From Nymphaea colorata (Eukaryota; Streptophyta; Magnoliopsida; Nymphaeales; Nymphaeaceae), in the NCBI RefSeq assembly GCF_008831285.2, contig NC_045140.1:21078370-21142369 (forward strand): a stretch of DNA of 64,000 nucleotides, given 5' to 3'. The translations under genes and the position numbers were made by a program. Numbering within the stretch: position 1 is the first letter of the stretch; the number at the start of each line of letters is the position of its first letter. The notes beneath the pieces are model-generated. The model ran no database searches. It was given only the letters and a program-made list of their open reading frames with translations, and was not told where the DNA came from. Positions 2,100 to 60,796 of this stretch are shown in pieces.

Positions 2100-4311
2100 C
2101 TAATAGAGGTGAGGCGGAAGACGAGGCTTCACGCGAACTTTGAGCGGAGCTGCTCTAGGCATGGTCACCCCTGACCCTTCGGTCATATCAACTGGCTCGT
2201 CCCTGGGAGTCCACCACTCAAAGCTCTGCAGCAAGCGTGCCAAAGTTAAGTGAAGCACTTGCAAAGCCATTGTCCAGCCGGGGCACATCCTCCGGCCCGT
2301 TCCGAACGGCATGAAGGCAAAGTTCTGACCACCGAAGGCAACCTCTTTGTGGCTTGTCAAGAACCTCTCCGGCCTGAACTCTTCTGGGTCCGTCCACAAC
2401 ATCGGGTCTCGAAATATCTTCCAGGCATTAACAAACAGAGTCGTGTCGGCTGGTATGTGGTACCCGCCAAGCTGGATGGGCTCGATCGACTGATGCGGGA
2501 GGAACAGCGGCGCCGCTGGGTACAGGCGCATTGACTCTTTCAGGATAGCTTGCAAGTATGGCAAGTTCTTGATGTCTGATTCCTCCACCCGTCTTTCCCT
2601 GCCTACGTTGCAGTCCAACTCTTCTTGTGCTTTTTCCAGTGCCTGGCGGCTGTTAAGCAGAGCTGAGAGAGCCCACTCTAAGGTGATCGATGTCGTATCC
2701 GTACCTGCCGCTACCAAACCCTGTGATAATTCAGGACGATCCACATCGCTTGCATAATTTAGCTTCGTTTGAATATAAAATTGAAAAACAAATCTAGAAA
2801 ATAATACATTTTGAACCTTACCAAAAAGGAGATATGAACTCAAAAACCAGATCTAAGCTTGACACCCTATTTTGGTCTACGCTATTTTACATACAAAACA
2901 GAGTTGATTTTAAGCTAATTAATAAGGTAGGGAATCGTTTTCGCAAAAGAAAAAGAATATCAAATCCATGTATTGCGCACCGGGCTTGGTCAGAACGATG
3001 CTCCCTAATTTTTAAGAAAACTTTGCCCACCCACTTCCATAATTTCTACAACAAAATGATTTGCATTGAATGCTACTTATTTAGTTTAAATGGACTTTTT
3101 GTTGTTATTAAAATCACATTGTTTTGCACCATTGATTTCTTTCTAATTAAATCTTAGGACACAACTAACTTAAATTTAAATTATAACTGAAACGTTTTAA
3201 CTAAAAAAAAGAACATTTTCGCTAGTTTGTATAACCATTATAAAAAACAAAGAACCTAAGTAATATTGTAAAACCTTATAAGTGAAATTTTAAAATAAGT
3301 AATTAATGTGATATATAGACTTACCAATAGTTGGTTAACCTTGTGTAAATACAACTAGAAGAAAATCCATAAGAAGAAAGAGCCATGTACCATGGCGGTG
3401 GCTTCAATTATTGTGTCAGTTTGGTGCTTTTCTGACAAATGGCCATCTTCTACCTCTTTAATGAGGACGTCAATGAAATCACTCTCCGTGTCCATTATCC
3501 CAGACTTTCTCTCTCGCCGGTGCTCGGCAAGCCAAGCCGATGCAAATCCGTCCATCTTCTTTTTAACCCTCTTCATGGCTTTGAGGTGGCCACCAACATC
3601 TAGCCACTCCAGACATGGTATCGCGTCGCTGACCGTCAACACTCCCAACAGATGGCAAAACTCACTTATCACTTTTCTAAACTCTTCTGCCTCACCATCA
3701 TTTTCTTCACCGTCCAAATCAAAGTACCGTTTTCCGGCGACCATCCTAAGCATGATGTTCATGATCAGGTTGCTGAAGCGCCGAGTCATGTCCACCGAGT
3801 AATCGCCACCGCAGCTGCGGTATAAGGCCTCCACCAAGGAGCCCACCTCCTCGACTCGGATGTGCTTGAGCAGCTCGAGTCGCTTGTTTGATAGCAGCTC
3901 GATGGTGACCATCTTGCGGACTTCGCGCCAGTAAGGTCCGTACGGGGCGAGCCCGTGCATGGCGCAGCCATAGCCGAGGCATTTCGCGCTCTCCAATGGG
4001 GGACGACTGGCAAAGGCTTGGTCGTTTGTAGTGAAGCACTCCTTAGCTAGATCCATGCTGCTCACTACTAAAGCACGCATTTGACCTAGTCGAAGGGTGA
4101 ACAAAGGCCCGTGCTTCTCTGAGAGAGCGGCCAAGGTTCTATGGAGAGGTGTGGTTCCACTCAGCAAGCCAAGGTGGCCGACTACAGGCCAAGCTTCAGG
4201 GGGCTCGATCGGTCGGCGTTTTGTTTCTCCTCTCTTTTTTGGCCAAATATGGTAGACTAAGACAAGGGCAAAGAGGGCTGCCAAACCCTCTAGCAGCTTC
4301 ATGGAATCCAT
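2100..4311 (-). CDS. Cytochrome P450, CYP82-like, gene A (intact, mosaic)
   Basis: Two exons, 4311-3391 and 2720-2100 (stop TAG), with a 670-bp phase-0 intron (ATG|GTACAT ... TCACAG|GGT), give 513 residues, normal for CYP82. The start is the ATG of MDSMKLL, shared by all paralogs; the upstream in-frame Met at 4500 is not conserved. Residues 5-24 form the ER anchor, followed by a proline-containing hinge and WPVVGHL. WREVRK is at 128-133, AAGTDTTS of the I-helix at 311-318, ExxR (KESMR) at 368-372, PERF at 424-427, and the haem loop FGTGRRMCPG at 446-455 with Cys453. The C-terminus PRLPPHLY is the CYP82 ending. The family oxidises alkaloids, terpenoids, coumarins or flavonoids with a P450 reductase partner at the ER; the substrate here is unknown. 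Exon 1, the intron and the first 24 codons of exon 2 are C/D/E type, while most of the rest of exon 2 and the 3' flank are B type. Confidence 0.9.
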
Positions 4312-5640
4312 CGTTGCGATGAGAGAATTTGTTGTCTTGTGTGTGGTGCGATGGTGTGTGTGTCTATGTATATATATATATATATATATTATAGGTGTAG
4401 TGTGGGTATCTGTGACAACCAAGAAAACAACTTCGGTGAATAGCGTGACTTTTGAAAAAGTTGAGTACATAATTGAAACTTTTTGCCCTGAAAACTTCAA
4501 AAAAGTAAACTGTGAGTCACTTCTGTCCTTTTCTCGTGAAAAAAAGAAAAAAAAATATAGAGTGACTGATTAAATGCTAAGAATGGTACCTGGATTGCAA
4601 TTAATTATGATTTAAAAGAAACTACCGGTCATAGCTCTTTAAAGTGGGAGCTGGTCATGGGGAAGAGTGAGTGAAATCAATTAACTGAAGATATTTCACC
4701 ATTATTTCTTTCATTCTCTCTTCAAAATGCTAAAGATTCACCGAGACTTTAATTTTTCAAGTTCTTAATGACTCGTACCATTCAGTTTCATAACCAAAGC
4801 TAAATCTAAGTTGGATATTCCACTGACATCTGATAAAGATCCGAGCCAGTTGCATATAAATGTCAGATCTTACGCATGTCTAATCCCAGTTTGCTTTAAA
4901 ATGAATTTGAGCCTGAATTCCAACATTATACTTTAAAAATACCCTTAAAAAACGTACCATTTTTATAACAAACCAGCTCCATCTGGGCAGCTTTTAGCAT
5001 CTTACTGCAAACTCCGACTAGAAAAGTTGGCATCTCTAACGTAACCATTCAGAAAGATAGTGCCTAACAAATTAAATTTAGGAGAAAAGGTGGACCTTGA
5101 ATAAAAAGTGAGTGTCTCATCTGAAACGTCCACAGGTCCACCTGTTCCCCACAAATGCGATGAGATGGACGTCTTGGCTTGTTCTTTGCCAAATGCCAAG
5201 GAACAGCGAGTGAAGCATCGAACGGGCCGTATTTATTGATGGTCGTGGTTCTTATTAACGAGTGAAAGGCGAAGATAAATTCTAATCACGTTCTAATCTA
5301 AACCGCAAGCTGTGGCGATATCAAACATACAAAGGAACAAAAACGTACCTGTTTGATTCAGAGTATTCAAACAACAAAAGGCTCCACCTATTATAGAGAT
5401 AATAACCTGACGTCTGCTAGGTAAGAAGTCTGCACGATCATACTGTGTCTTCTTGCCAATGGAATCAGCGAAGCTTTTAGGTGGCTGTCTGTATACACCC
5501 TTTCAGAAACATATTTGGGATGCAATCGTTTGCACCAATTTTCCTAAACAAACAGGAAACTTAAATATAAAAATCCTACTTATTCAGGCAAGGATTATGA
5601 CAACAAAACCGAAGAATAAAATAGCAAATCTAGAAGCTGT
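4312..5640. repeat. Upstream block of gene A, shared with genes C, D, E
   Basis: No gene is seen. The first 500 bases (including a stretch around 4620-4770 with CTTTAAAGTGGGAGC) recur upstream of C, D and E and of the pseudogene at 41505, so promoters were copied with the genes. The distal part (4980-5640) recurs at 29280-30070, 42900-43570 and 47500-48210. Short open frames in it are not conserved between copies. Confidence 0.7.
4368..4393 (-). promoter_or_regulatory. TATA-like (TA)n tract of gene A
   Basis: A TA microsatellite lies 57-82 bases upstream of the ATG of gene A and is the only TATA-like sequence at the expected place. Tracts of other lengths sit at the same place in front of D and E. 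The transcription start is not visible. Confidence 0.5.
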
Positions 5641-5764
5641 GGTGTTTCTAGCCTGTTTCAAATGAAATGACTTGACCAAGAAAAAAATTAGGAATAAGAC
5701 CAACTAGACCATCAAGTACTACATGGAAACAGGAATAGGAAACTAGATCCTTAATCTTCAAGGT

Positions 5765-7548: not shown

Positions 7549-8179
7549 CACATGCACTGTCGTGAAAAATAAAACAAATAACAAGGTAACGTAATAACAT
7601 GTGAAAGTCTCGAGAATGTTTACATGTGAAATCTTTGTAAAGATTTTAATGGCCAAGGTTGAAAATTTTGAACAGATAAATAGGGGCCGTTCGATTTTAC
7701 AAAATGGGCGAACTATACATGTTTAAGAACCTTGTGGGGACGATTTAAACATAAACTGAAAACTTTGAGATCCCGGTTTCGTCTTATGGAGCTTCGTGTC
7801 CGACTTCATGTTGAATTTTTTCCAAAATACTTCCAATGTTAATATACGCAGTCGTCTTAGTTTTCAGCCTTTCTATATCCAAACAGAAGTCATGCGTCAT
7901 AAGGACCAAACAATCTTCTTGTTCTCAACTTAAGTGAGGGAAAATGTTGAACTCAAATAAAAGTTTTATTTTATCATCAAATAAAATAAACACCAGAATC
8001 TGTTGGTGAGAAAAATTTGAGCTGCTTTAAGCGCAAATAAATAGCGCCACTCTTTCTCTGTTAACAATTAAGAAAAACTTGGTTCTCTTTCTATTATATA
8101 GGTTATACGTATATACTTTATATTGTTGTCAAAACTTTTAATCAAGTGTCACTTTGAAATTTTGGCTTCAAGTAATGAT

Positions 8180-8224
<45 letters not shown>

Positions 8225-8313
8225 CTTAGCAGCAGCCTAACAATTAGTGCACCTTGTGTAAAATACAATGAGAAGAAAAACAAAAAGAAGAAAGAGCAGC
8301 ATGTATTGTATAC
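6781..8313. repeat. Non-coding P450-flank block
   Basis: No gene is seen. Positions 6781-7690 match 34810-35770, and 7690-8313 match the relic-bearing blocks at 640-1275, 20985-21583 and 38755-39334. Two long (TA)n microsatellites occur at 7497-7543 and 8182-8221; both are much shorter or absent in the paralogous copies. Confidence 0.65.
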
Positions 8314-8379
8314 CATAACGGTGGCTTGGATTATGGTATCAGTTTGGTACTTTTCAGACAAGCGACCGTCTTTTAACAT
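8314..8379 (-). pseudogene. CYP82 exon-1 3'-end relic (type 1), frame open
   Basis: Twenty-two codons read MLKDGRLSEKYQTDTIIQAT then VM, ending at an ATG|GTATAC donor. This is the exact 3' end of CYP82 exon 1 (compare EVEDGHLSEKHQTDTIIEAT in gene A). The rest of exon 1 is missing upstream, so it cannot make a P450. Confidence 0.75.
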
Positions 8380-10015
8380 CTTTGTCTTATAAAAGTTTCA
8401 TGAATCCAAGAGAATATGAGCAAGTGCAAAACGGTACGGTCTTGCACCGTTGACATTAATAACACTTAAAGCCTGTTATTGTGAGCATTACATCTTTACA
8501 TTTTTTCACACACGAGATAGTTCACGTTGCCCTTGTCTATAAAGGTGCCTGTGGGTGTCCGTAATTTTTTAATGTTAAGCTGTTCGTTCTAAACACGTCA
8601 AATGTTTAAACAAATTCTTGGTCCAAACAACGATCCATTCCTACCTTTTCGTCGTTTAGCAATTTATTTTATTCGTAGCAGGACGTGTACAATGAATTAG
8701 ATGAGCTCTCACTATCATTTCAATGTCAAATTCACGGTTCTCACTATAAGAAATAGAACCAAAGCTGACAAGTTCTTCGGCTGTAAAATTCATAAATAAG
8801 GAACGCATCACGCCATCTGATACGTAGGCCATCTTTGATTAATGAAACAATATTACGTGATTTCGTACGTAGACTTGAAGTTCATCAATGAATTATAAGT
8901 GGCCACTGTTAATTTCCCAATTTAAAAACAAAAAAAGAAAAAGAAAAAGAAACGGCCACCTGAATCTTTCACATCTTTGTTGAGGTTGCATTGTGTTACT
9001 AGGACGGGTCACGATCTTTTAGCGGGTACCCAGATTACGAGTTAAATCAAGAATGATTTTTATAAAATTGTTAGTTACGCTGTGGTTTCAGAGTTACATT
9101 GGATCTATGATATTCTATTAAGATTGTTAAGTTAAAATTAATTGAAATAGAAGTTATAAGATTGCAGTGAGGTGGAATTTCACAAACTTAAAATGTTTAA
9201 GTCCATTGATCAACTCTCTCTCTCTCTCTCTCTCTCTCTCGCGTCCATTAACCCTGAGAAGGATCATGGAAAAGTAAGAGCTTGTTTTATCATTCAATCC
9301 TTTTAGGGGAGACTTTCGTTTTTCTTTTCCAGGGTTCTTTTCATAATTCTGAGGTTCCAAATACTTGTTATATTTTCGGCGCCATAACCACCTCTCTCTT
9401 GTCTCTGCAATTACAACTAAAGTTGTGGTGAAATCATGGAAAGACTGACCAAAAAAAAAATGTGAATCGTAAAACTGTAAAATGCCTCTTCCTACAAGAG
9501 ATTCTCTCTCTCTTTTATGAAGCATGCTTTCTGAATCCATCACACTATTGCTTGTCTTCCTAATTATTCGTCTCTTAGCTCTAGAATTTTATCTTATGTA
9601 TTGTAGCAGGACATGCAGGATGAATGGTAGAGAAGATTAGTCGTAATAAATCTCCACTAAAAAAACTGTATCAGATAAAAGCCGCTGTCATCCGTGTTAC
9701 CGTCAGACAAAAGCATGAGGCAGATGAAGCATTTTGTGCAATTTGAAGATCTTCAAGGCAACGATTCACTCGCCAGAATGGCCCTTCCAATTATGCGTGT
9801 GATGACGAGGACAGTCCCTTGATTGAGACCTCACAGCTTGCTTAGTTGCAACCAAGGAACAGCTAGCGAGACATGTGTGCAGAATACAAGATTACATTTC
9901 CATTAAGACGAAACATTCACAAATTTCTCTTATAACAATCACATTTTGTTTGCTCATTGTTTGTTTGGAAGTAAACTAGAAAAAGTTGTTATAAAAGCGA
10001 CGAACCATAGCTGGA
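8380..10015. other. Intergenic: block remainder plus unique DNA
   Basis: Positions 8380-8960 continue the repeated flank block. Positions 9000-9840 have no duplicate that I can find in the window and no supportable gene; they include a (TC)n run at about 9213-9240. From 9815 the sequence is B-type P450 3' flank, which the copia element at 10016 interrupts. Confidence 0.6.
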
Positions 10016-10337
10016 TGTTGCGAGATTTGTGGAAGAAGATTGGTGTTGCCCAATACACCAAATCAACTATATTCTGCTGTTACAATGTGATTGTGGATAA
10101 TCAAGAGAGAAGGAAAGAAATCTTCTCTATATTTTGAAAAAGATTCGATAACCGCTTTCTTGGTTATCGTCTCACTCATCATGTATAAAAACCCTCTTTC
10201 TCTCTTGGATTGTAACAATGGAAAGAAAAATAAAATAGCAGTCTTCTTCTTCCTCCGTGGACGTAGGCGAGAGTGCCGAACCACGTAAATCTGTTGTTCC
10301 TGTTTCTATTGTTGCTTCTACCTTATGTTTTTTATCA
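10016..10337 (+). repeat. 5' LTR of the young copia element
   Basis: 322 bp, TG...CA ends. It contains TATAAAAACCCTC around 10183-10195, a likely TATA box, and is preceded by the target duplication CTGGA. Confidence 0.95.
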
Positions 10338-10349
10338 TGGTATCAGAGC
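10338..10349 (+). other. Primer-binding site
   Basis: TGGTATCAGAGC directly follows the 5' LTR. It is the usual complement of the initiator tRNA-Met 3' end used by plant copia elements. Confidence 0.9.
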
Positions 10350-11230
10350 GGGTTATATAAAGCCGCTGCATATTTCTTCGACAATCTTGGAGACAGGCTG
10401 TGAGCTGTTTTTTGACAAGGAGATACTTGCTGTTTGAAGGAGTAGCAGAACAGAGTGCCGACCGTCAGGAAACCTGCCAGAAAATTGGCCGGCGTTGTCT
10501 ACTCCGGCGACGTCAAAGGTCGAGCAAGGACTCCTTCGAATCATCTACTTCTGAGGAACGTTCCTACCAATTTTCAGATTTTTTGACACAGCCATTAAGG
10601 AGTTATGATTTTTTTAAGAAACACCTGTTGCTGCTGCTCCTCTGTTTTTCCCAAACCGTCAGGAAGCCTGCTGCAAAACTGACCGGCGTTGTCAGCTCCA
10701 GCGACGTCAGGGGTCGAACAAGGGCTCCTTAGAATCGTCTACCTCTGAGGAACGTCCCTACCAATTTTCAGATTTTTAGAAGCAGCCATTGAGGAGTTAT
10801 GATTTTTTGAAGAGATGCCTCTCGCTGGAAAAACTGTCTGCAACTACTCTTCCCTTTCCCCAATTTCTATTCACGAATTGGGATGCAAGGGCACTCTCAA
10901 ATTTTTTGCCGTCTCTCTACTTTTGAGTTAATTTGGTTGTCGGGAGCTGTGGTTGAGGACCAGGAAAAAGAATCAAAAGGTCTTCATTGGCGATCAAGGT
11001 TTTCTGAATCCATTATTGAGGTCGATCAAGGTTTTCTGAATCCATTATTGAGGTTCTTCGTTATCGGGTGACATCCTCCTCTCCCATGTTCCTTGAGAGC
11101 ATGATTGATTATGCACATTTATTCTGAAACGAGTTTTTGAATGATCGAGTAGCAGCTTTGAGTAGCATCTTTCACTAGCTTCCTTGCTATATTCTGTTAT
11201 TTTGTGAATTGTCTGGTATTCTCTTATTCA

Positions 11231-14200
11231 ATGGCAAATAACCAGCAAGAAACTACAGAAAGTTTTAGACATCTCAATAGCAACGAGCAAAGCAGCCAAC
11301 CTCTGAAAATCACCAATATGCTATTGAATGGCACCAACTACTTAAGTTGGGCTAAGGCAGCTCGACTATTTTTAAGCGGTCGATCCAAGGTTGGATACAT
11401 AAATGGGAAGATCAGTCCTCCTAATAGATCAGATCCTAAATTTGATGATTGGCAATCTGAAAATGATATGGTGATGTCGTGGCTTATTAACTCCATGGAA
11501 CCCTCTATTTCAAATCTATTTATGTATCAAGAAACTGCAAAGGAAATTTGGGATGAGTTAAAACAACTTTTTTCAGAACAGAATAACCTCGCACGAGTCT
11601 ATCAAATTCAGGTCGAGATTGCTAATCTTATGAAGGGTGACAAATCACTGAATCTCTACATAGGAGAACTCAAAAGCCGATTTGATGAACTTCTGCAATA
11701 TAGGCCTGCTACGACTGATCCTGACACATACAAAACCCGGTTTGAGGAAGACAAAATCTTCAAATTTTTGGCAGGTTTAGGAGCCGATTATGAAGGTATT
11801 AGGAGTCAAATCCTCAATACCACTCCGCTGCCCAACTTCAACAATGTTTGTCAAATGATACAAAGGGAGGCTGCACGAAGGCAAGTTATGAATTCCAAAA
11901 TTGAAATTTCTGAAGAAAGCCGTGAACAAATGGCATGCGTCGCTCAGGCCGATTTTGTCAAAGGGGATCAAAAACTTCCGAATGCCAACAAACCCTCCAA
12001 TGCTAACTCCAGCTATCAGAAAGGGAGAAATAAATTTAGATGTACCCACTGCAAGCGGACTGGTCATACTCGTGAAAGATGTTGGGAGCTAGTCGGAAGA
12101 CCAACAAGAGACAAAGCTACCTCCTCCACAAAACTGGCGTATTCCACCAATTCTGATTTAGCGAACTTTGTCACCAAGGACGACCTTGAGAAATTTTTTC
12201 AAAAGTTTGCAAAGACCAATCTAGTATCATCTCAGCCTATCAGCAATTCAGAAGGTAACAACTTTGCTTTGACTGCTACTTTAAATCGTTCTGCATGGGT
12301 TATTGACACAAGGGCTACCGATCATTTGTCTAGCGACTTAAGAAAAATTATTAATCTTGACAAAACAAAACAAAGATCAGTTTTTACAGCCGATGGATCA
12401 CCCATTATTGCTGAAGGATATGGTGAAACTACATTCTTTAAGAAAGGGCAGAAATCTCAAGTTTTATATATTCCCAAACTGTCAGCTAATCTCATGTCGG
12501 TAAGCAAATTAACCAAGTCTCATAACTGTTTGGTTGTTTTTTCCTCAAAGGATGTGATATTTCAGGATTGTGTGACGAACCAGGAGATTGGTAGAGGGCA
12601 TGAGCAGAATGGGCTATACGTGATGGACGAAAATTGTTGCAACCTCATTGTGAATGATCAGCAAGATCGACGTTCTCACTACTGGACCTGACACGCCAGA
12701 CTTGGTCACATCTCTAATCAAAGTTTAACTCGTCTTATTCCAAATCTTACAGTTGAAAATAAATCATGTGATGCTTGTGAATTTTCTAAATCCACAAGAT
12801 TACCTTTCCAGTCTTCTACTGAAAAATCAAATGACATCTTTGATTTAGTTTATTCCGATGTTTGGGGACCAGCTCCAGAAGTGTCATATTCTGGATTTAG
12901 ATATTATGTTTCCTTTATTGATGACAAGACACGCATGACATGGTTGTTCTTTCTTAAGTATAAGAGTGAAGTTTTTAGTGCTTTCAAAGAATTTTTCAAG
13001 ATGGTACATACTCAATATGGAGTAAAGATAAAAAAAACTTCGCTCTAACAATGGTGGAGAATATGTGAATGATGCTCTTGAAACCTTTTTAAAAGGGGAA
13101 GGAATACAACCTCAATATTCTTGTGCAGGTACTCCACAACAAAATGGAGTGGCAGAACGAAAGAATAGACAATTACTGAATGTTGCTCGATCTCTTATGA
13201 CTCACATGCATGTTCCTTTTCGTTTTTGGAATGATGCAATTGTTACGGCCTGTTATATTATCAACAGAGCACCAAGTTCCAGTATTGAAAATCAAGTTCC
13301 TATAGAACTTCTTCTCAACAGAAAAGTTTCTATAAAGCATCTTAAAGTTTTTGGATGTAAATGCTATGTTCATAGACAGGAAAACTTTAGGAACAAATTT
13401 GAAAAACGTGCTGTCAAAAGTATTTTCCTCGGTTATTTCAGTAGAAAGAAAGGATATAAATGTTATGATCCAGTCACTAGAAGATTATTTATATCTCGTG
13501 ATGTGAAATTTTTTGAACAGGAATCCTTCTTTGATTATCAAAGACAGGGGGAGATGAATGTTGTTAATCCGACCAAGCAGCCCACATTGCCAATAGTGAA
13601 AATCAGCTATGAAGCTCCTAGTGCTAGCAAGCAGCCCGTATTGCCTATGGTTGAACCCCATTTTGAAGTAGACAAAATCATTTCAAATGATGTGTCTCCA
13701 CTTTCACCTCAAGAACCCGACACCAGCTTCAATCCTCCCACTCTTTCCATCGAACCAAATCCCAATTCAAACCAACCAGAAAATTCCATTAGACAATCCA
13801 CTCGTCCTACCAGACCACCAACAAAATTTAGTGATTATTATACCTATCTTACAACAAACAAAAACCATTCCATAGACCAATACTTGTCATTCGAAAATCT
13901 GCCCATTCACTATAAATCCTATATCCTAAATACCTACTCCCAAAACGAACCAAAAACTTATGAGGAGGCAAAATCTGATCCAAAGTGGCATAATGCAATG
14001 GAAGAAGAACTTGCGGCATTGAAAAAAAATCAAACATGGGATTTAGTTCCTCTACCTGATGGCAAGAAGCTGGTTGGATGCAAGTGGGTTTATCGAATAA
14101 AATACAACAGCGATGGAAGTGTAGAACGCTACAAAGCTCGCCTGGTCGCCAAAGGATTCACTCAAACTGAAGGTATTGACTATACTGAAACCTTTGCTCC

Positions 14201-15479
14201 TGTTGCAAAGATGAGTTCTGTCCGAATGTTAATCTCAGTAGCAGCAAACAAGAGATGGCCTCTAAATCAACTTGATGTGAAAAATGCTTTTCTTCATGGT
14301 GAACTCAATGAAGAAGTTTATATGGAGGCTCCAAAAGGTATAAAAAATGAGCACAGGTACGTATGTAAATTGAAAAAGGCTCTATATGGTTTGAAGCAGT
14401 CACCGCGAGCTTGGTTCTCTCGTCTTAGTGATGCGCTTGCAAAAATGGGTTTCAAAAGAAGCAGTGCTGATCATACTATGTTTACGTCTTTGAGAAACTT
14501 TAAAATATGTATTCTCCTGGTCTATGTGGACGATATAATAATGACAGGTGATGATATTGATTTTATGCCACGCGTCAAATACTATCTTAATCAGCTCTTT
14601 GAAATCAAAGATTTGGGGATACTAAGATTCTTTTTAGGAATTGAAGTTGCACACTCAAACAAAGGAGTCTTCCTTTGCCAAAGGAAGTATACGTTAGATC
14701 TATTGAAAGAAACAGGATGCTTGGGTGTGAAACCAGCAGAGACACCCCTTGAAGTCAATTGTAAATTAAAGAAAGATGAAGGAGAAGTCGTCGAGAATAT
14801 TCAAAGCTTTCAGAAACTCGTCGGTAAACTCATATATTTAACTGTTACAAGACCAGACATATCTTATGCTGTAAGTCTCATCAGTCAGTTTATGCATTCT
14901 CCTAGATCATCTCATATTGAAGCTGCTCATAGAATATTGAGATATTTAAAAAGATGCCCTGGAAAAGGAATTTTAATGAAACGTGATCTGCCACTAGATG
15001 TTGTGGGTTATACTGATGCAGATTGGGCAGGGGATCCAAACGACCGAAGATCTACTTCTGGTTTTTGCACCTTCGTTGGAGGAAATCTTGTAACTTGGGG
15101 AAGCAAAAAACAAACTGTAGTTGCTCGATCAAGTGCTGAAGCAGAATACAGAGCTATGGCTGGATGTACATGTGAACTGGTGTGGATAAAAGCGCTTCTG
15201 AAGGATATGAATATTGACGTGCGAGACTCTATAAAGCTTATATGTGACAATATGGCTGCCATCTATATTGGGGCAAATCCGGTCTTTCACGAAAGAACCA
15301 AACACATTGAAATTGACTGTCACTTCATTAGAGAGAAGATTCAAGATGGAACTATCAAAACTTGTCATGTTAAAAGTGAAAATCAGTTGGCTGATATTTT
15401 CACCAAGAGCCTAGCACGTGAAAAGCATCAAAGCATTGTAAACAAGTTGGGACAGATTGATATCTGTCCTCCAACTTGA
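11231..15479 (+). pseudogene. Copia gag-pol region (fossil)
   Basis: Parts in order: a gag domain (LNGTNYLSWAKAARLFLSGR near 11320-11390); a CCHC zinc knuckle CTHCKRTGHTRERC near 12041-12082; a protease region near 12300; integrase, with the TPQQNGVAERKNRQ motif near 13130-13170; reverse transcriptase, with YKARLVAKGFTQ near 14130 and YVDDI near 14524; and RNase H (YTDADWAGD near 15010, SSAEAEYRAM near 15130). The order marks Ty1/copia. About two breaks interrupt the reading frame. Confidence 0.9.
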
Positions 15480-15487
15480 GGGGGAGA
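15478..15487 (+). other. Polypurine tract
   Basis: GAGGGGGAGA lies immediately before the 3' LTR and serves as the plus-strand primer in this family. Confidence 0.85.
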
Positions 15488-15488
15488 T

Positions 15489-15814
15489 TGTTGCGAGATT
15501 TGTGGAAGAAGATTGGTGTTGCCCAATACACCAAATCAACTATATTCTGCTGTTACAATGTGATTGTGGATAATCAAGAGAGAAGGAAAGAAATCTTCTC
15601 TATATTTTGAAAAAGATTCGATAACCGCTTTCTTGGTTATCGTCTCACTCACTCATCATGTATAAAAACCCTCTTTCTCTTTTGGATTGTAACAATGGAA
15701 AGAAAAATAAAATAGCAGTCTTCTTCTTCCTCCGTGGACGTAGGCGAGAGTGCCGAACCACGTAAATCTGTTGTTCCTGTTTCTATTGTTGCTTCTACCT
15801 TATGTTTTTTATCA
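15489..15814 (+). repeat. 3' LTR of the young copia element
   Basis: 326 bp, almost identical to the 5' LTR, with a 4-bp ACTC duplication and one substitution. The target duplication CTGGA follows. Confidence 0.95.
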
Positions 15815-15861
15815 CTGGATGTGTGCAGAATACAAGATTACATTTCCATTAAGATGAAACA

Positions 15862-17635
15862 TAGCTGGATGGGCTCGATCGACTGATGCGGGAGGAACAG
15901 CGGCGCCGCTGGGTACAGGCGCATTGACTCTTTCAGGATAGCTTGCAAGTATGGCAAGTTCTTGATGTCTGATTCCTCCACCCGTCTTTCCCTGCCTACG
16001 TTGCTGTCCAACTCTTGTTGTGCTTTTTCCAGCGCCTGGCGGTTGTTGCGGAGAGCGGCGACTGTCCACTCTAAGGTGACCGATATGGTGTCTGTGCCGG
16101 CCGATACCACAGCCTGCCATAGTTATATATATGCGGTACAAGTTAGTTTTTGAGGAATGAATTCTGTCCTTCACAGACAAGTATCATTTTATTTTTTTGA
16201 AAATCGAAAAATATGAAGATACATAGAATTTGTCCCTTCGGAGCACGACATTTAGTAAGAAAACCATTTTGAACCTTATCAGAGCAGCGATTTGAGATTT
16301 ACCATTTGCAAACAAACAGAAGTTTATGTCATGAGGACCAAACGATCTTCTAGTTCTGGATTTAAGTGAAGGAAAATATTGAACTCAAAGAAAAGTTTAC
16401 TATATTTTTTATCATAAAATAAAATAAACATCAGAATCAGTTGATGAGAAAAATATTAGCCGTTTTAACGGCAAACGAATACTACAACTCAGTTTCTCGG
16501 CCAACCATAAAGAAAAACTAGATTCTCTTTCTAATATATAAGTTATATGTATGCTGTATTGTTGTCAAAATTTTTAATGCAAATGTGACTTTTAATAATT
16601 TTGTTGGCTTCAAGCTATGATTAACATATATGAAGTTAGCAACAGCCTAACAATTTTAGTGCAGCTTGTGCAAAATACAACGAGATGAAAAACCAAAGAG
16701 CAACATACCATAATGGTGACTTTGATTATGGTGTCAGTTTGGCACTTTTCAGACAAGCGACTGTCTTTCAACTCTTCAATCAGCACATCAATGAAATCTC
16801 GCTCCGCTTCTATCCTGCCGGCAGACACTTTCTTCCGCTGGTGTTCTGCCGGCCAGGCCGAGGCAATTCGGTCCATCTTCTTGTGAACCCTCTTCATGGC
16901 CTTGAGGTGACCACCCACATCGAGCCACTCCAGCCATGGTATTGCGTCAGTAACTGTCAGCACTCCCAATAAATGAAAAAACTCGCTTATCACTTTCCAT
17001 AACTCTCCCGCGTCCCCAGTGTATCCTTCTTCACTGTCCAAAACGTACAGTTTTCCGGCTACCATCCTAAGGATGATGTTCACGATGAAGGTGCTGAAAC
17101 GCCACTTCATGTCCACCGGTTGATCGCCACCACAGGTGTGGTATAAGGCCCGCACCAAGGAACCCACCTCTTGGACTCGGATGTCCTTGAGCAGCTCAAG
17201 TCGCCGGTTTGATAGCAGCTTGATGGTGACCATCTTGCGGACTTCACGCCAGTATGGTCCATATGGGGCGAGGCCGAACATGGCATGGTCGTAACCGAGG
17301 CATTTTGAGCCCTGTAGTGGGGGCCGACCAGCAAAGGCTCGGTCGTTTGTAATGAAGCACTCCTTGGCTAAATCTGCGCTGCTCAGTACTGCAACACGCA
17401 TTCGACCTAGTTGAAGGGTAAAAAGAGCGCCGTGCTTCTCTGATAGAGCAGCCAAGGTTCTATGGAGAGGAGTGGTTCCGCTTAGTAGGCCGAGGTGGCC
17501 AACTACCGGCCAAGCACCGCCAGGCTGGGGTGGTCGGTGCCTTGTTTCTGCCTGCCGCTTCTTTGGCCAAATATGGTATATGAAGAAAAGGGCAAGGAAA
17601 GCAGCAAAGCCCTCTACCAATTTGATGGAATCCAT
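15862..17635 (-). pseudogene. CYP82-like pseudogene F, haem domain lost
   Basis: Exon 1 (17635-16709, 309 codons from MDSIKLVEGF) is fully open and B type. The intron (16708-16114, 595 bp) keeps ATG|GTATGT and GGCAG|GCT. Exon 2 starts normally (AVVSAGTDTISVTLEW) and runs through ExxR (KESMR), but stops matching after HQSIEPIQL at about 15862. PERF, the haem-binding cysteine loop and the C-terminus are gone, so no functional P450 can be made. Exon 2 joins a stretch of P450 3' flank (TGCAGAATACAAGATTACAT), which is a deletion or rearrangement scar. The copia element then inserted 43 bases further on. The promoter region is still like that of gene B, so transcription is possible. Confidence 0.88.
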
Positions 17636-19478: not shown

Positions 19479-19817
19479 AGGTGAGCTGGGAGACGAGGCT
19501 TCAGACCAACTTTGAGCGGAGCTGTCCTGCATACATACGTTTATGTATTTACTTTTGGTTAACCATTTAAGAAACTTAGATTTCGTGCTTCCATACATTC
19601 ATACGTTTGTGTGTTTACTTTTCTTCTATTGCCAATAACTTTTGGGCGTGATTTTAAAAATTTCTCTTATCAAGACCCTAGCGATTTTAGTGCACTCATT
19701 CTAAAACAGATCGAGAAAAAAAGGAGGATCTACCATAGTGGTGGCCTTGATTATTACATCAGTTGTATGCTTCTCAGACAAGTGTCTGCCTCCTAGCTTT
19801 TTAATGAACCCGTCCAT
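19479..19817 (-). pseudogene. CYP82 relic, type 2: exon-1 end joined to exon-2 tail
   Basis: At 19817-19734 the minus strand reads MDGFIKKLGGRHLSEKHTTD then VIIKATTM and a GTAGAT donor. At 19530-19479 it reads TAPLKVGLKPRLPAHLY then stop, the perfect CYP82 C-terminus. About 200 bases of intron-like DNA lie between, so nearly all of exon 2 was deleted. The exon-1 end (IKKLGGRHLSEKHTTDV) differs from all five intact genes and marks a third P450 subtype. Confidence 0.75.
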
Positions 19818-19859
19818 GTACAATGAGGAGAGGACCCATAAGGAATTGAAACGTCATTT

Positions 19860-20220: not shown

Positions 20221-22501
20221 TAATAAAGTTACCTCATTATTCATTAACCAAACTTAAATTAGTGACGTGCGTTTAATGGACAAAATCTTTTGTCTGTAAT
20301 AAGCTTTTTAAACATTTTCCTCTAGAAAAATTATACTGCGATAAATTGGTGAAACCTTCCCGAGGGTAACTCGAGGAGAATTTACCAGAAAAGGCCTTGC
20401 CTCACCTTTTACTTATTTTTCTTTTCTTAGCATACTACTTTTGAAATCTCGGACTAAAAATTATGTAAAATTTTTCACTTGAATTTTTCTAGTTCAAATG
20501 TCATTTTCCAAATTGTTACGGATAACGAATTTGTCAATAAACTGAATTTGTGAAATAGACGATCTTTGTCATCACCATGTGTGAGAGAGAGAGAGGGTAA
20601 AAAAATGTCTTTCATAATAACTATGCAATTCTGATAATGACGAGTTAATTATGACTATATATATAATATCAAGAGACAGAGAGAGAGAGAGAGAGCTTTT
20701 GAAAAAAGGAAGATGAAAGGAGAATGGGGAGAAAGTAAGTTCCATGCATGACTCATCAAAATGACAAGCAAGAAGTAACAATGACGCCGTATCTGCCATT
20801 ATTTAAAATGGCCACCAACATTGTCCATGTATTTTATCTCTTTTAGTTTTTCATTAATCAGATAATTTTCATACTCTTATGTAAAATCCTCAGGATTTGA
20901 GAACTAAGGATATTGAAAATTGTCCCTTACTGAGTTATTTTACTTTTTTTGAAAATTGAAAGTATGATCACCTGGAATTTGCCCTTACGGAGCACGACAT
21001 TTAGTAAAAAAAACCATTATGAACCTTATCAGAACATCGGTTCGAAATTTGCCATTTTCAACCTCATGGGGACGATTTAAACATAAACTGAAAACATTGA
21101 GATCACGGTTTCGTCTAATGGAGCTTCGTGTCCGACTTCATGTTGAAGATTTTTCCAAAATCCTCCAGTGTTGATATACGCAGTCGTCTTAGTTTTCTGC
21201 CTTTCTATACGCAAACAGAAGTTACGTGTCGTAAGGACCAAACAATCTTCTCGTTCTCAATTTAAACTCAAATAAAAGTTTTATTTTATCATCAAATAAA
21301 ATAAACATCAGAATCTGTTGGTGAGCAAAATTTGAGCTGTTTTAAAGGCAAATAAATAGCGCCACCCTTTCTCTGTGAACCATTGAGAAAAACTTGGTTC
21401 TCTTTCGATTATATAGGTTGTATGTATACTTTATATCGTTGTCAAAACTTTTAATTAAGTGTGGCTTTGAAATTTTGGCTTCAAGTAATCTATGAACTTA
21501 GCAACAGCCTAACAATTTTAGTGCACCACATGTAAAATATAATGAGAAGAAAAACCAAAAAGAAGAAAGAGCAACATATATACCATAACGGTGGCTTGGG
21601 TTATGGTGTCAGTTTGGTACCCTTCAGACAAGCGACCGTCTTTTAACATCTTGTAAAGATTTCATGAACCCAACAGTATATGAGCAAATGCAAAACGGTA
21701 CTGTCTTGCATCTTTGACATTAGTAACACTTAAAGCCTGTTATTGTGAGCATTACTTTTTAAAAGTTTTTCACACACGAGATAGTTCACGTTGGGCTTGC
21801 CTATAATGGCACCAGTGGATGTCGGTAATTTTTTAATGTTAAGCTGTTCTTTCTAAACACGTTAGATGTTTAAACAAATTTTGGTGCAAACAACGACGCG
21901 TACCTACCTTTTCGTTTTTTAGCAATAATTTTATCTTATTTAATTAGTAGCAGGACGCGTACAATGAATTAGATCAGACGATGCCCCCTCTCACTATCAT
22001 TTCAATGACAAATTCACGGTTCCCACTATAACAAATCGAACCCAAACTGACAAGTTCTTCGGCTGTAAAATTCATAAATAAAGGAACATCTTTGATTAAT
22101 GAAACAATATCACGTGGTTGGGTACGTAGACTTCTTGAAGTTGATCAATGAATTATAAGTGGCAACTGGCAACTTCGCAATTTAAAAACAAAAAAAGAAA
22201 AAGCTTTAGGAACGCCCACCTGGATCTTTCACATTTTTGTTGAGGTTTTTGCGTGTGATTGAGACCTCACAGCTTGCTTAGATGCAATCAGGGAACAGCT
22301 AGCCAGACATATGTGCAGAATACAATATTACATTTCCATTAAGATGAAACATTCACAAATTTGTCTTATAACATTCTCATTTTATTTGCTCATTGTTCGT
22401 TTGGAAGCAAACTAGAAAAAGTAGTTCTAAAAGCAACGAACCCTGCTAAATCATCATTAAGCATGCAAAAACAAGAAGCAAAATATATCTGAGTTGTTTG
22501 A
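20221..22501. repeat. Duplicated P450 3'-flank block (copy 2)
   Basis: This is the partner of 1-2099 and lies downstream of gene B. No gene is seen apart from the relic at 21584-21655. The final 200 bases before the stop of gene B presumably hold its 3' UTR. Confidence 0.75.
21584..21655 (-). pseudogene. CYP82 exon-1 3'-end relic (type 1)
   Basis: The minus strand reads KMLKDGRLSEGYQTDTITQA then TVM at an ATG|GTATAT donor. It is the homologue of the relics at 1276, 8314 and 39335. The upstream part of exon 1 is absent. Confidence 0.7.
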
Positions 22502-24651
22502 CTAATAGAGGTGAGGCGGGAGACGAGGCTTCAGGCGAACCTTGAGTGGAGCTGCTCTAGGCATGGTCACCCCTGATCCTTCGGTCATGTCAACTGGCTC
22601 GTCCGTGGCCGTCAACCACTCGAAGCTTTGCAGCAAGCGTGACAACGCTAAGTGAAGAACTTGCAAAGCCATTGTTCGACCAGGGCACATCCTCCTGCCT
22701 GACCCAAACGGCATGAAGGCAAAGCTCTGACCGTCGCTGAAAGCAAAATCCTCGTCGCTGGTTAAGAACCTCTCTGGTTTGAACTCTTCTGGGTTTGTCC
22801 ACAACATCTGGTCTCGAAATATCTTCCAGGCATTAACAAACAGAGTCGTGCCGGCTGGTATGTGGTACCCGCCAAGCTGGACAGGCTCGTTCGACTGATG
22901 CGGGAGGAACAGCGGTGCCGCTGGGTACAGACGCATTGACTCTTTCACGACAGCTTGCAAGTACGGCAAGTTCTTGACGTCTGATTCCTCCACCCGTCGT
23001 TCCCTGCCTACATTGCAGTCCAACTCTTGTTGTGCTTTTTCCAGCGCCTGGCGGTTGTTGAGGAGAGCGGCGACTGTCCACTCTAAGGTGACCGATATGG
23101 TGTCTGTGCCGGCCGATACCACAGCCTGGCAAAGTTCATGACGGATGCCCAATATATACATAAGCTAGTTTTTGGGCAATGAATTTGTCCTTTACGGACT
23201 GTCATTTCATTTTTTTGAAAATGGAAAAATAAGAAGATACATAGAATTTGCCCCTTCGAAGCATGACATTTAGTAAGAAAACCATTTTGAACCTTATCAG
23301 AGCAGCGGTTTGAGATTTACCATTTGCAAACAAACAGAAGTTTATGTCATAAGGACCAAACGATCTTCTAGTTCTGGATTTAAGTGAAGGAAAATATTGA
23401 ACTCAAAGAAAAGTTTACTATATTTTTTATCATCAAATAAAATAAACATCAGAATAGTTGATGAAAAGAATATTAGCTGTTTAACGGCAAACGAATACTG
23501 CAACTCAGTTTCTCGGCCAACCATAAAGAAAAACTAGATTCTCTTTATAATATATAAGTTATATGTATGCTGTATTGTTGTCAAAATTTTTAATACAAGT
23601 GTGACTTTTAATAATTTTGTTTGTTTCAGGCTATGATTAACATATATGAAGTTAGCAATAGCCTAACAATTTTAGTGCAGTTTGTGCAAAATCTAACGAG
23701 AAGAAAAACCAAAGAGCAACGTACCATAATGGTGGCTTTGATTATGGTATCAGTTTGGTGCTTTTCAGACAAGCGACTGTCTTTCAACTCTTCAATCAGC
23801 AGGTCAATGAAATCTCGCTCCGCTTCCATCCTGCCGGCAGACACTTTCTTCCGCTGGTGTTCTGCCAGCCAGGCCGAGGCAATTCGGTCCATCTTCTTGT
23901 GAACCCTCTTCATGGCCTCGAGGTGACCACCCACATCCAGCCACTCCAGCCATGGTATCGCGTCAGTAACGGTCAGCACTCCCAATAAATGAAAAAAATC
24001 GCTTACCACTTTCCATAACTCTTCCGCGTCCCCAGTGTTTCCTTCTTCACTGTCCAAAAAGTACCGTTTTCCGGCGACCATCCTAAGGATGATATTCACA
24101 ATGAAGGTGTTGAAACACCACTTCATGTCCACCGGTTGATTGCCACCACAGGTGTGGTATAAGGCCCGCACCAAGGAACCCACCTCTTGGACTCGGATGT
24201 CCTTGAGCAGCTCGACTCGCCGGTTTGATAGCAGCTTGATGGTGACCATCTTGCGGACTTCACGCCAGTATGGTCCATACGGGGCGAGGCCGAACATGGC
24301 ATGGTCGTAACCGAGGTATTTTGAGCCCTGTAGTGGGGGCCGACCAGCAAAGGCTCGGTCGTTTGTAATGAAGCACTCCTTGGCTAGATCTGCGCTGCTC
24401 AGTACTGCAACACGCATTAGACCTAGTTGAAGGGTAAAAAGAGCGCCGTGCTTCTCTGATAGAGCAGCCAAGGTTCTATGGAGAGGAGTGGTTCCACTCA
24501 GTAGGCCGAGGTGGCCAACTACCGGCCAAGCACCACCAGGCTGGGGCGGTTGGCGTCTTGTTTCTGCCTGCCATTTCTTTAGCCAAATATGGTAGATGAA
24601 GAAAAGGGCAAGGAAAGCAGCAAAGCCCCCTACCAATTTGATGGAATCCAT
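22502..24651 (-). CDS. Cytochrome P450, CYP82-like, gene B (intact)
   Basis: Exons 24651-23725 (309 codons) and 23125-22502 (207 codons plus stop) with a 599-bp intron (ATG|GTACGT ... GCCAG|GCT) give 516 residues. The start is MDSIKLVGGF; the in-frame Met 18 codons upstream is probably in the leader. The N-terminal anchor is followed by QPGGAWPVVGHL. Further motifs are WREVRK, SAGTDTIS in the I-helix, KESMR (ExxR), PERF, and FGSGRRMCPG with Cys456. The C-terminus is PRLPPHLY. The haem loop reads CPGRT, against CPGWT in the other subgroup, and the PERF-to-haem spacing is one residue longer (SDEDFAFSDGQSF). Function: probable ER monooxygenase of specialised metabolism; substrate unknown. It is the only intact member of its subgroup here. 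Confidence 0.92.
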
Positions 24652-28730: not shown

Positions 28731-30775
28731 CGTTGCGCTGAGAGAATTTGCTGTCTTGGTGTGTGGTGCGATGGTATATGTGTATGCATATGTTATAGAT
28801 ATGGTGTGTGTGGTGTCGGTTGACAACAAGAAAGCAACTTCCATGAAATAGCGTATGTTTTTGAAAAAGTTGACTATATAATTGAAACTTTTTGCACCGG
28901 GATTAAATGACTGACTAAATGTAGAATGACTGATTAAATGTTAAGATTGGCACCTGGATTGCAATTAATTATGATTTAACTGAAATTTCCGGTCATGGCT
29001 CTTTAAAGTGGGGGCTGGTGATGGGGAAGATTCAAGAATGAGTGAAATCCTTTCTTTCATTCTCTCTTCAAAATGCTTAAGATTCACCAAGACTTTAATG
29101 TACCAAGTTCCTAATGACTCGTAGCATTCAGTTTCATAACCAGAGCTAAATCTAAGTTGGATATTCCACTGACATCTGATAAAGATCCGAGCCAGTTTGC
29201 TTATAAATGTCAGATCTTGGCATGTCTAATCCCAGTTTGCTTTTAAATGAATTTGAGTCTGAATCCCAACCTTAAACTTTAAAAATACCCTTTAAAAACG
29301 TACCGCTTTTGAAATAAACCAGCTCCATCTGGGCAGCTTTTAGCATCTTACTGCAAACTCCGGCTAAAAAAGTTGGCATCTCTAACACAAAAATTCCGAA
29401 AGAGAGTGCCGAATAAATTAAATTTAGGAGAAAAGGTGGACCTTGAATGAAAAGTGAGTGTCTCATCTGAAACGTCCACAGCTCCACCTGTTCCCCACAA
29501 ATGCAATGAGATGGACGTCTTAGCTTGTTCTTTGCCAAGGAACAGCGCCCATTGTTTCAATCATCTTTCGTGAAGCATCGAACTGTCCGTATTTATTGAT
29601 GGCCGTGGTTCTTTTTAACGAGTGAAAGGCGGAGATAAATTCTAATAACGTTCCAATCTAAACCGGATATCAAACATGCAAAGGAACGAAAATGTCCTTG
29701 TTTGATTGAGAGTATTCAAACAACAAAAGGCTCCACCTATTCTAGAGATAATAACCTGACGTCTCTTAGGTAAGAAGTCTGCACAATCATACTGTCTCTT
29801 CTTGCCAATGGAATCAGCTGCTTCTTGCAGAAGCTTTTTATGCTTTGTTAACGTGAAATCCTGCGGCTGAAGGCGTCCACTCTTTAAGGAAGTACATACA
29901 GGTGGCTGTCTGCACACACCCTTTCACAAACATATTTGGGATGCAATCGTAGGCACCAGTATTCCTAAACAAACAGGAAAGTTAAATATAAAAATCCTAC
30001 TTATTGAGACAAGGAGTATGATAACAAAACTGAAGAATAGCAAATTCAGACAAGGAGTATGATAACAAAACTGAAGAATAGCAAATCCAGAAACTGAAGA
30101 ATAGCAATCCCAGCTTCCAATGAAGTTAACCTTGCAGATAGCTGGGTCTGACCCAAACCCAAATACTTCTGCCGAATCTAATTAATTGTTTCGGTCGGTA
30201 TTGGAGTCCATTTTCGAACTCACAAACCTACTGAAACCTGTAATAAACACAAGAGTGTCCCTGAAAATGAAAGATATAATAGCAAAAGCATGTTGAAAAG
30301 AATTTTAAAACAGTTTTATGTTTAAAGATTCTTAAGAGGCTTCAGGAACTAATATACTTATCGGTGATATTCTCCGTTGTGTTAGCTGTCTCCAAATGCA
30401 TAAAAGAGGCCGAACACTGCTATCAATTTAAATAGGGCAGTAGCGCGCTTCCTTCAACTCACAATGACAAGAAATGCTGAGCTAACAGAAAATTTTAAAT
30501 TTTTGTTCAGTAAATCAAGCAAGCATCAAAATCAAATTAGAAAAATCAGAGCTACTATAATTAAGGGGCAAACAAAATTAAACAGCAACTTAACTTTTGG
30601 TTAACCATTTAAGAAACTTAGATGTTGTGCTTCCATACATACATACGTTTATGTGTTTACTCTTCTTCTATTGCCAATACCTTTTGGGCGTGATTTTAAA
30701 AATTTCTCCTAACAAGAGCCTAGCGATTTTAGTGCACTCATTCTAAAACAGATCGAGACAAAAAGGAGGATCTAC
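28731..30775. repeat. Upstream block of gene C and adjoining flank
   Basis: No gene is seen. Positions 28731-30070 copy the upstream block of gene A, lacking about 40 bases (around 28895). A short segment, CAAGGAGTATGATAACAAAACTG, is repeated in tandem near 30015-30075. Positions 30120-30770 match 48480-49130 and lead into type-2 P450 relics in both places. Confidence 0.65.
28784..28802 (-). promoter_or_regulatory. Weak TATA-like region of gene C
   Basis: ATCTATAACATATGCAT on the minus strand, 54-72 bases before the ATG. The long TA run of genes A, D and E is missing here. Confidence 0.35.
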
Positions 30776-30859
30776 CATAGTGGCGGCCTTGATTATTACA
30801 TCAGTTGTGTGCTTTTCAGACAAGTGTCGGCCTCCTACCTTTTTAATGAGCCCGTCCAT
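30776..30859 (-). pseudogene. CYP82 exon-1 3'-end relic (type 2)
   Basis: Twenty-eight open codons read MDGLIKKVGGRHLSEKHTTD then VIIKAATM, ending at an ATG|GTAGAT donor. It matches the relics at 19734 and 37462. The rest of exon 1 is absent. The DNA beyond the donor (30590-30770) matches 19540-19730 and so represents old intron. Confidence 0.75.
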
Positions 30860-30981
30860 CAGAGGACATATAAGATGAAATCAGAGGACCCATGAGGAAT
30901 TGAACCGTCATTTTGGTGCATATATATGATATCTTTGATGATTGAAACGTCATATGATTCGGTTCGTAGTCTTGAAGTTAA

Positions 30982-37005: not shown

Positions 37006-37515
37006 CTAATAGAGGTGAGGCGTTCAGGTGAACTTTGAGCGGAGCTGCTCTAGGCATGGTCACCCCTGATGCTTCGGTCATGTCAACTGACTCGGCCGTC
37101 AACCACTCAAAGCTTTGCTTTGCAGCAAGCGTGCCAAAGTTAAGTGAAGAACTTGCAAAGCCATCGTCCAGCCGGGGCACATCCTCCGCCCCATTCCGAA
37201 CGGCATAAGGGCAAAGTTCTGACCACCGAAGGCAATCTCTTTGTGGCTCGTCAAGAACCTTTCTGGCTTGAATTCTTCTGGGTCCGTCCACAACATCGGA
37301 TCTCGTTGTACCTTCCAGGTGTTAACAAACAGGGTGGTGTTGGCGGGTATGTGGTACCCACCAAGCTGGACGGGCTCGATGGACTGGTGCGGAACCAAGA
37401 GTGGCCCCGCTGGGTACAGGCGCATTGTCTCTTTTGCGATGGCTTGCATCCGTTGCTTGCGTCAGACAAGTGTCGGCCTCCTAGCTTTTTAATGAACTCG
37501 TCCATCAGGGACGTA
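37006..37515 (-). pseudogene. CYP82 exon-2 remnant fused to a type-2 exon-1 end
   Basis: From 37450 the minus strand reads MQAIAKETMRLYPAGPLLVP, PERF and FGMGRRMCPG of D type, up to LARLLQS. A 5-bp TTTGC duplication then shifts the frame. SFEWLTAESVDMTEASGVTM follows in the new frame as B-type sequence. A further deletion of about 11 bp removes the normal tail. At its 5' side (37510-37450), MDEFIKKLGGRHLSDA, the end of a type-2 exon 1, is joined straight to mid-exon 2, with the intron and I-helix deleted. It is non-functional. Confidence 0.85.
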
Positions 37516-60514: not shown

Positions 60515-60796
60515 CTGCTTTTTACAGATAGAAGAAGAAGAAGAAGAAGAAGAAGAAGAAGAAGGGGGAGTTGTGGGGATGTTGATGGTGGGGAAAGGAG
60601 AATATTAAAGGCTAAAGTCAAAGTGCGGTTGTGATTAGGTCATGATGGCAATTGTGAGTTTTATGATTTGCATGGGAGTTGTAGGGTGTAGGACGCAGGG
60701 AAGGAGGAAGGGAGGTAGCTAGGCTGGCTAGGTGGTCGAAATGGTTCTGTGATCCGGCAGAGTTCATAAATGCTACTCTGCAGCCACAGGCAGAGC

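Follow-up and report, generated by a model that had tools for sequence, protein, structure and literature searches.

How a single gene of a tandem cytochrome P450 array comes to resemble one sub-group of its neighbours over some stretches and a second sub-group over others is the question raised by gene A, which lies near one end of a 64,000-nucleotide stretch of the Nymphaea colorata genome (contig NC_045140.1, positions 21,078,370 to 21,142,369; hereafter the window). An initial annotation, made from the sequence alone, had described the gene as a mosaic of two P450 sub-groups, and we have followed that description through the exons, the intron and both flanks.

The plant P450 genes of the window form a tandem array, every copy of which lies on the minus strand; the letters B to F come from the initial annotation and were assigned to loci by the present analysis. 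Five genes (A, B, C, D and E) are intact; all five are split into two exons by a phase-0 GT..AG intron that lies just 5' of the I-helix motif. Gene A (4311-2100) consists of exon 1 (4311-3391), a GT..AG intron (3390-2721) and exon 2 (2720-2100), with a single open frame of 513 residues. Gene B (24651-22502) stands for the B sub-group, and genes C (28730-26224), D (47001-43937) and E (52018-49473) form the C/D/E sub-group. Gene F (17635-15862) is a truncated copy in which exon 1 is open and exon 2 is cut, leaving a remnant at 15862-16113. Among the relics are an exon 1 pseudogene, P1 (42388-41504), a pseudo exon 2, P2 (37449-37022), and three further P450 pieces, P3 (38756-38381), U19 (19524-19281) and one at 5922-5776. 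We take the family to be CYP82, membership of which is assigned at an identity of about 40% or above with named CYP82 proteins. In exon 1, identities are 91.6-94.7% within A, C, D, E and P1, 95.5% between B and F, and 78.6-81.0% between the two sub-groups. The introns, in global alignment, are poorly alike between sub-groups (45-53%): B-F reaches 92.4%, A-E 89.9%, C-E 87.9% and A-C 86.4%, and the intron of A is 49.7% identical to that of B and 47.8% to that of F. The D intron, 1511 bp long as against 670 in A, gives 51-62% with A, C and E in such alignments (A-D 60.3%). A few identical runs of variable sites occur in exon 1 within the C/D/E group, where 10 pairs were tested: A and P1 have one in common at 3656-3729 (p = 0.013), D and P1 another (p = 0.004) and C and D a third (p = 0.032); the run shared by A and P1 is lost as a real signal after correction for the 10 pairs. 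Apart from the P450 genes, a minus-strand open frame at 59984-60604 had no Pfam match at 0.001, this being the one frame searched, and contains a motif that we take to resemble a KANADI-type GARP protein.

That gene A encodes a P450 is seen from its protein, which the Pfam p450 profile (PF00067) matches over residues 37-496 with 342.7 bits against a gathering score of 22.8 (4.3e-102), and whose nearest solved chain is ferruginol synthase 5ylw (5e-73). P450 enzymes carry three signature motifs, the haem loop FxxGxRxCxG, the K-helix ExxR and the I-helix AGTDT; in A they read FGTGRRMCPG (residues 446-455), ESMR (369-372) and AGTDT (312-316). The frame is intact across all of the junctions described below, as are the splice sites, and Ka/Ks in exon 1 is 0.29-0.39 for A against C, D and E.

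The affinities of A were followed at diagnostic exon columns, those with one base in C, D and E and another in B (plus F, where F exists); columns with a third base in A were dropped, which left 196 sites with A in one of the two states. Along the exons A is successively of C/D/E, B/F, C/D/E and B type. Exon 1 (3391-4311, residues 1-307), which holds substrate-recognition segments SRS1-3, has the C/D/E state at 116 sites and the B state at 5 (123 sites, 2 other), the intron is of C/D/E type by the identities given above, and so is the start of exon 2 (2650-2720; 12:1), with the I-helix and SRS4. A B/F-type tract follows at 2405-2649 (1:22), 244-253 bp long when measured between its flanking sites and containing the K helix, ExxR and SRS5; within it A retains the C/D/E state at 2624 and shows a base of its own at 2640. 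The next block, 2174-2404, with the PERF region and the haem-Cys loop, is again of C/D/E type (28:1), and the tail, 2100-2173, with SRS6 and the stop codon, is of B type (1:9), differing from B at 4 of 74 bases and from C, D and E at 13-16. The states of A in exon 2 (77 sites, 2 other) form the string CCCCCCCBCCCCCBBBCBBBBBBBBBBBBBBBBBBBCCCCCCCCCxCCCCCCCBCCCCCCCCCxCCCBBBBBCBBBB. The switches placed by the initial annotation at about 2650 and about 2405 are found again here. It had called the sequence from 2405 to 2230 D-like: the C/D/E type of that block stands, its end lies at 2174 rather than at 2229/2230, and C/D/E-like is the safer label for it, as E (14 differences) and C (16) are hardly worse than D (11 of 231), with B at 38 of 231.

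The string contains 12 runs, where shuffled strings have a mean of 38 and a minimum of 21 and none of 100,000 reached 12; at the 45 third-codon-position sites of exon 2 alone the clustering has p = 3e-5. Switches of paralog state are thus clustered, silent sites included. A change-point model over the 196 sites gave BIC values of 198.1, 150.7, 128.0, 109.4 and 116.2 for one to five segments; four segments are best, with cuts at 2658/2649, 2406/2404 and 2175/2173 (the two-log-unit interval of the last is 2187-2173), so that the junctions are located to within 2 to 14 bases. The same run scan with C, D, E, B and F as query gave p = 1.0, 0.36, 1.0, 0.09 and 0.90, none of them significant. Block pattern, shuffles and change points together bear out the mosaic nature of gene A.

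Synonymous distances follow the same blocks. In exon 1, Ks from A is 0.16-0.20 to C/D/E and 0.53-0.62 to B/F (A-F 0.62), and in 2720-2650, with only about 20 synonymous sites, it is 0.32-0.48 and 0.73, respectively. Over the part of the tract that F retains (2649-2470), A-F is 0.025, A-B 0.196 and A-C/D/E 0.39-0.59; 2404-2174 gives 0.17-0.20 to C/D/E and 0.75 to B, and the tail, again with only about 20 synonymous sites, 0.17 to B and 0.38-0.58 to C/D/E. On a fixed tree, A joins at 0.005 from the C/D/E node and 0.195 from B/F in exon 1, at 0.02 from the C/D/E node in 2720-2650, at 0.005 and 0.223 in 2404-2174, and at 0.196 from C/D/E as against 0.016 from B/F in the tail. For the tract, the join point lies 0.158 from the C/D/E node (2649-2405) or, with F included (2649-2470), 0.126 from it as against 0.006 from B/F. 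Segment by segment, then, the attachment of A moves from the C/D/E end to the B/F end, back, and on to the B end, and its segments clearly do not all group with one paralog. Allowing separate edge lengths for each block class (exon 2, five genes) raised lnL by 33.5 and lowered BIC from 3552.8 to 3530.9, a gain of 21.9. Unrooted topology tests over all trees rejected A nested within C/D/E for 2649-2405 (AU 5e-7) and for the tail (AU 0.006); for exon 1, 2720-2650 and 2404-2174 they rejected neither placement, because A there sits on a long internal branch beside the C/D/E node, and in those blocks site states and attachment position were therefore used instead. A home-made triplet scan, in which 102 of 120 ordered triplets passed the entry threshold and were tested and the best 45 were considered, likewise pointed to recombination: among those 45, A is the child at the permutation floor of 5e-5 in all six combinations of a C/D/E major with a B/F minor parent. 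The same 45 also place F as the child, with B and A as parents, at 2607-2477 (p = 5e-5) and B as child with A and E (p 0.0003-0.0006), which can be explained as echoes of the mosaicism of A and of private changes in B.

The flanks extend the pattern beyond the coding region. On the 5' side (4312-5700), the 150-bp bins covering 4351-5700 align with C, D, E and/or P1, and none aligns with B or F. The 3' flank (1-2099) is of B type, as had been claimed: the bins of 1-1950 match B at 89-95% down to base 1 and show no match to C and only 71 bp to D and 53 bp to E, both in bin 1801-1950, alignment with C/D/E returning only in the bin from 1951. Portions of this flank are also matched by P2 and by the flank of F (7600-10010); over 766-1898, A is 92.7% identical to B (1069 bases) and 90.3% to the F flank (1106 bases). 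The two ends of A thus come from different sub-groups, which is the pattern a crossover gives, and, as in the chimeric insect gene CYP337B3 discussed below, ends and flanks trace to two paralogs. A single crossover by itself fails to account for A, four segments being preferred to two (BIC 109.4 vs. 150.7).

The tail and 3'UTR were polarised with relics from the window, P3 and U19, which are short, perhaps mosaic themselves, and 74.7-78.6% and 80.0-83.6% identical, respectively, to A-E in the exon part; 25 sites are listed, and often just one relic has a base. A carries B's base at 16 of the 25, where the relics side with C/D/E at 8, with B at 5, and are mixed or silent at 3. At the other 9 A has the C/D/E base and the relics agree with C/D/E throughout, which would fit private changes in B. 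P2, like A, carries B's base at the 8 sites with C/D/E-like relics.

Of particular weight for the order of events is the tract at 2649-2405. Its closest relative, and likely donor, is the exon 2 remnant of F, from which A differs at 3 of 180 bases (98.3% identity), so that the tract is nearly identical to an identifiable donor; beyond the cut in F, A differs from B at 1 of 65. A-private bases number 1 in 245 in the tract as against 42 in 1223 in the coding blocks of C/D/E type (Fisher p 0.006), and their scarcity marks the tract as young. The 3' flank of A looks older than the tract, judging from its identities to B (92.7%) and to the F flank (90.3%) set against the 92.4% between the B and F introns. 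With moderate confidence, then, the crossover would have come first and the F-type conversion afterwards, with the caution that the 3 of 180 in the tract and the 9.7% of 1106 in the flank come from coding and non-coding sequence, whose rates differ.

We consider it likely that A was assembled in this way, by ectopic homologous recombination, with an enzyme of intermediate profile as the presumed result. An unequal crossover near 2174 would have put the 5' flank, exon 1, the intron and most of exon 2 of a C/D/E-type gene in front of a B-type 3' end and brought in B-type downstream DNA as well; the junction is observed, and its mechanism and date are what the reading supplies. A later gene conversion of 244-253 bp would then have overwritten 2649-2405, an observed tract, with F, at that time still longer, or a near-identical gene as the presumed donor. 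By parsimony only, the direction would be from F to A. F retains B-type sequence 5' of the tract, and its 3' side is gone; since the tract extends past the present end of F, F or a twin of it was longer then. The junction sequences at the F locus (9852-16113) suggest that a deletion, accompanied by a small templated filler, removed the remainder of exon 2 from F and that a copia element was inserted later. The filler consists of AGCTGGAT, repeated, plus a 42-bp copy of 3'UTR sequence; the element has LTRs at 10016-10337 and 15489-15814 (98.5% identical over 326 bp), a 5-bp target duplication, CTGGA, and gag and reverse transcriptase matches. An unequal crossover in exon 2 plus a conversion tract, as first proposed, remains the simplest account of segments that switch affinity. 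The initial annotation had not assigned the two events to particular segments; most probably the F-like tract is the young patch, and the crossover fell at the junction near 2174.

The reverse order would take just as many events: a crossover near 2650 would have made everything 3' of it B/F type, and a later C/D/E-type conversion would have restored 2404-2174. A-B distances are indeed about equal in tract (14/245) and tail (4/74), and 2404-2174 is slightly nearer to D than to E or C. We nevertheless regard this order as unlikely: A is much nearer to F in the tract than in the flank, and A-private bases, so scarce in the tract, are ordinary in 2404-2174 (6/231), which makes the tract the young piece, the extra A-B distance there stemming from changes private to B. 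Distinctly less probable is an origin by conversions alone, with two B-type tracts, the second of which would reach from the tail through no less than 2 kb of 3' flank. A long conversion and a crossover look alike in sequence, and the B-type flank runs out of the window before its far end is reached; against this, no gene of the window lies further out than A, whose 5' side is C/D/E and whose 3' side is B, as from a crossover, and tracts above 2 kb are unusual, the rice survey reporting an average of 130 nt and a maximum of 1237 (PMC2277409). An assembly chimera, with reads of different copies merged, is more improbable still, even though near-identical tandem copies are prone to mis-joining and the tract is so close to F. 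The tract departs from F at three bases and stays of B type for 65 bp past the end of F, with one difference from B, and is thus not a verbatim copy of any copy in the window; moreover, tail and flank are about 5-7% off B, and the reading frame is kept at all junctions. Least of all can recombination be dispensed with by taking the B-like pieces as ancestral states kept by A or as convergence driven by selection on these two recognition segments, SRS5 and SRS6, for although both B-type pieces contain an SRS and the relics side with B at 5 of the 25 tail/3'UTR sites, third codon positions are equally sharp (p 3e-5), the A-F synonymous distance is 0.025 in the tract as against 0.62 in exon 1, A equals B at 8 of the 25 sites where the relics agree with C/D/E, and the 3' flank is of B type too, so that convergence and ancestral retention are rejected on the silent and the polarised sites.

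A gene formed by crossover and subsequent conversion, as we favour, would have kept an open frame while combining SRS1-4 and the haem loop of C/D/E type with SRS5 and SRS6 of B/F type. The SRS limits are those we assume after Gotoh, with SRS6 placed at the tail block. A agrees with B, unlike C, D and E, at six scattered positions of exon 1, at ten in the tract (A334, Q339, N345, P361, S370, A377, F380, L381, A406 and F410) and at four in the tail (S490, V492, R496 and K505). With ExxR at E369-R372, A377 and L381 are positions +5 and +9 of SRS5, where Gly/Val is changed to Ala and Val to Leu, with a change of Leu to Phe at +8; in SRS6, Phe490 is changed to Ser and Leu492 to Val. In CYP76AH15, the residues 5 and 9 from ExxR (G362 and L366) are described as a mutagenesis hot spot, modelled as pointing towards the haem, where L366F and L366E raised one product and G362V and G362V/L366F altered the product pattern (PMC6240942). 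The new combination of recognition segments in a frame still open, which the initial annotation had put forward, therefore stands at the level of sequence for SRS5 and SRS6, and a changed activity is an expectation drawn from it. A would presumably be expressed as a membrane P450 from a C/D/E-like promoter, its 5' flank being of that type, and its active site may give a substrate or product profile between those of its two parents; an altered reaction would fit the imported residues, though the exchange may also have been neutral in its effect.

Chimeric P450s from tandem arrays have already been published, and gene A is a well-resolved new case. The CYP337B3 gene of Helicoverpa armigera arose by unequal crossing-over of CYP337B1 and CYP337B2, with at least six likely fusion events and fenvalerate hydroxylation tested (PMC6211633). 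Like A, it joins two neighbouring paralogs with the frame intact, and the repeated fusions at one locus recall A and P2; it is, however, an insect gene with tested activity and one described crossover, whereas A is a plant gene known from sequence, with three junctions and a conversion tract. Gene conversion between P450 paralogs is also reported for CYP6B8/B28 and CYP6B9/B27 of Helicoverpa zea, but the tracts there are 5'-polar and homogenise within pairs (PMC7830528), whereas that of A is short, 3' and mixes diverged sub-groups. Among plants, the CYP82D tandem array of Tripterygium wilfordii, in which 133 kb hold 11 complete and 4 incomplete genes and the copies have different enzyme roles, is similar to the window as a dense P450 array with gene remnants and LTR elements; the main text of that paper contains neither 'gene conversion' nor 'unequal', and the passages considered describe no mosaic genes (PMC9936527). 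The family would be shared too, if the window is CYP82 as we take it to be. The rice survey of multigene families lists 377 conversion events found by GENECONV, more than 60% of them between chromosomes, with short tracts, P450 among the families and pseudogene partners, all of which is similar to A; it is a genome survey without single-gene anatomy (PMC2277409), and here one gene is dissected. In Apiaceae CYP71AJ, SRS regions including SRS5 and SRS6 separate the functions of close paralogs, as they may in A, but the changes are treated as substitutions, and 'gene conversion' and 'recombination' are absent from the main text (PMC4482195). A search outside most subscription journals found no paper combining CYP82, 'gene conversion' and 'tandem'.

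Gene A amounts to a natural domain swap with relatives of both parents within 64 kb, namely the intact B, C, D and E and what is left of F, and its imported residues include two SRS5 positions singled out by plant P450 mutagenesis. It thereby bears on whether ectopic recombination, beside point mutation, makes new plant P450 activities, the patching of one paralog with pieces of others being an established means by which clusters of this kind explore new enzymes. It also makes plain that trees built from whole genes can be misleading for arrays like this one.

Gene A may have company within the window. P2 has a C/D/E-type body with a B-type tail and 3' flank (36114-37449), switching at 2220/2212 in A coordinates; its flank is 90.0% identical to A (581 bases) and 90.4% to B (561 bases). 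Since it has its own switch position, and its flank is no closer to A than to B, P2 is probably a second, independent C/D/E-to-B fusion. Private changes in the stretch opposite A 2649-2470 number 7 in B and 1 in F (4 other), as against 12 and 21 in exon 1, an excess in B (Fisher p 0.016) in a comparison picked after seeing the data. The differences between B and F there lie mostly at 2594-2477 in A coordinates, B 22882-22999 in exon 2, and B may carry an SRS5 patch of its own from a paralog outside the window. One might go further and suppose that the array shuffles 3' SRS cassettes, with SRS5 and SRS6 brought separately, and without loss of frame, into a C/D/E enzyme, F's SRS5 in A, the patch in B and the fusion in P2, as a recurrent and selected route to P450 specificities in plants rather than an accident; we offer this as a speculation that is more likely wrong than right by a good measure.

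Short relics of P450 exon-1 ends occur at 1189-1356, 8221-8382, 19668-19820, 21542-21658, 30710-30862 and 39246-39397. Such relics recur within the 3' flank units of B type as well as outside them; in the flank of A they accompany B/F-type intron sequence (916-1350). They are traces of older members of the array.
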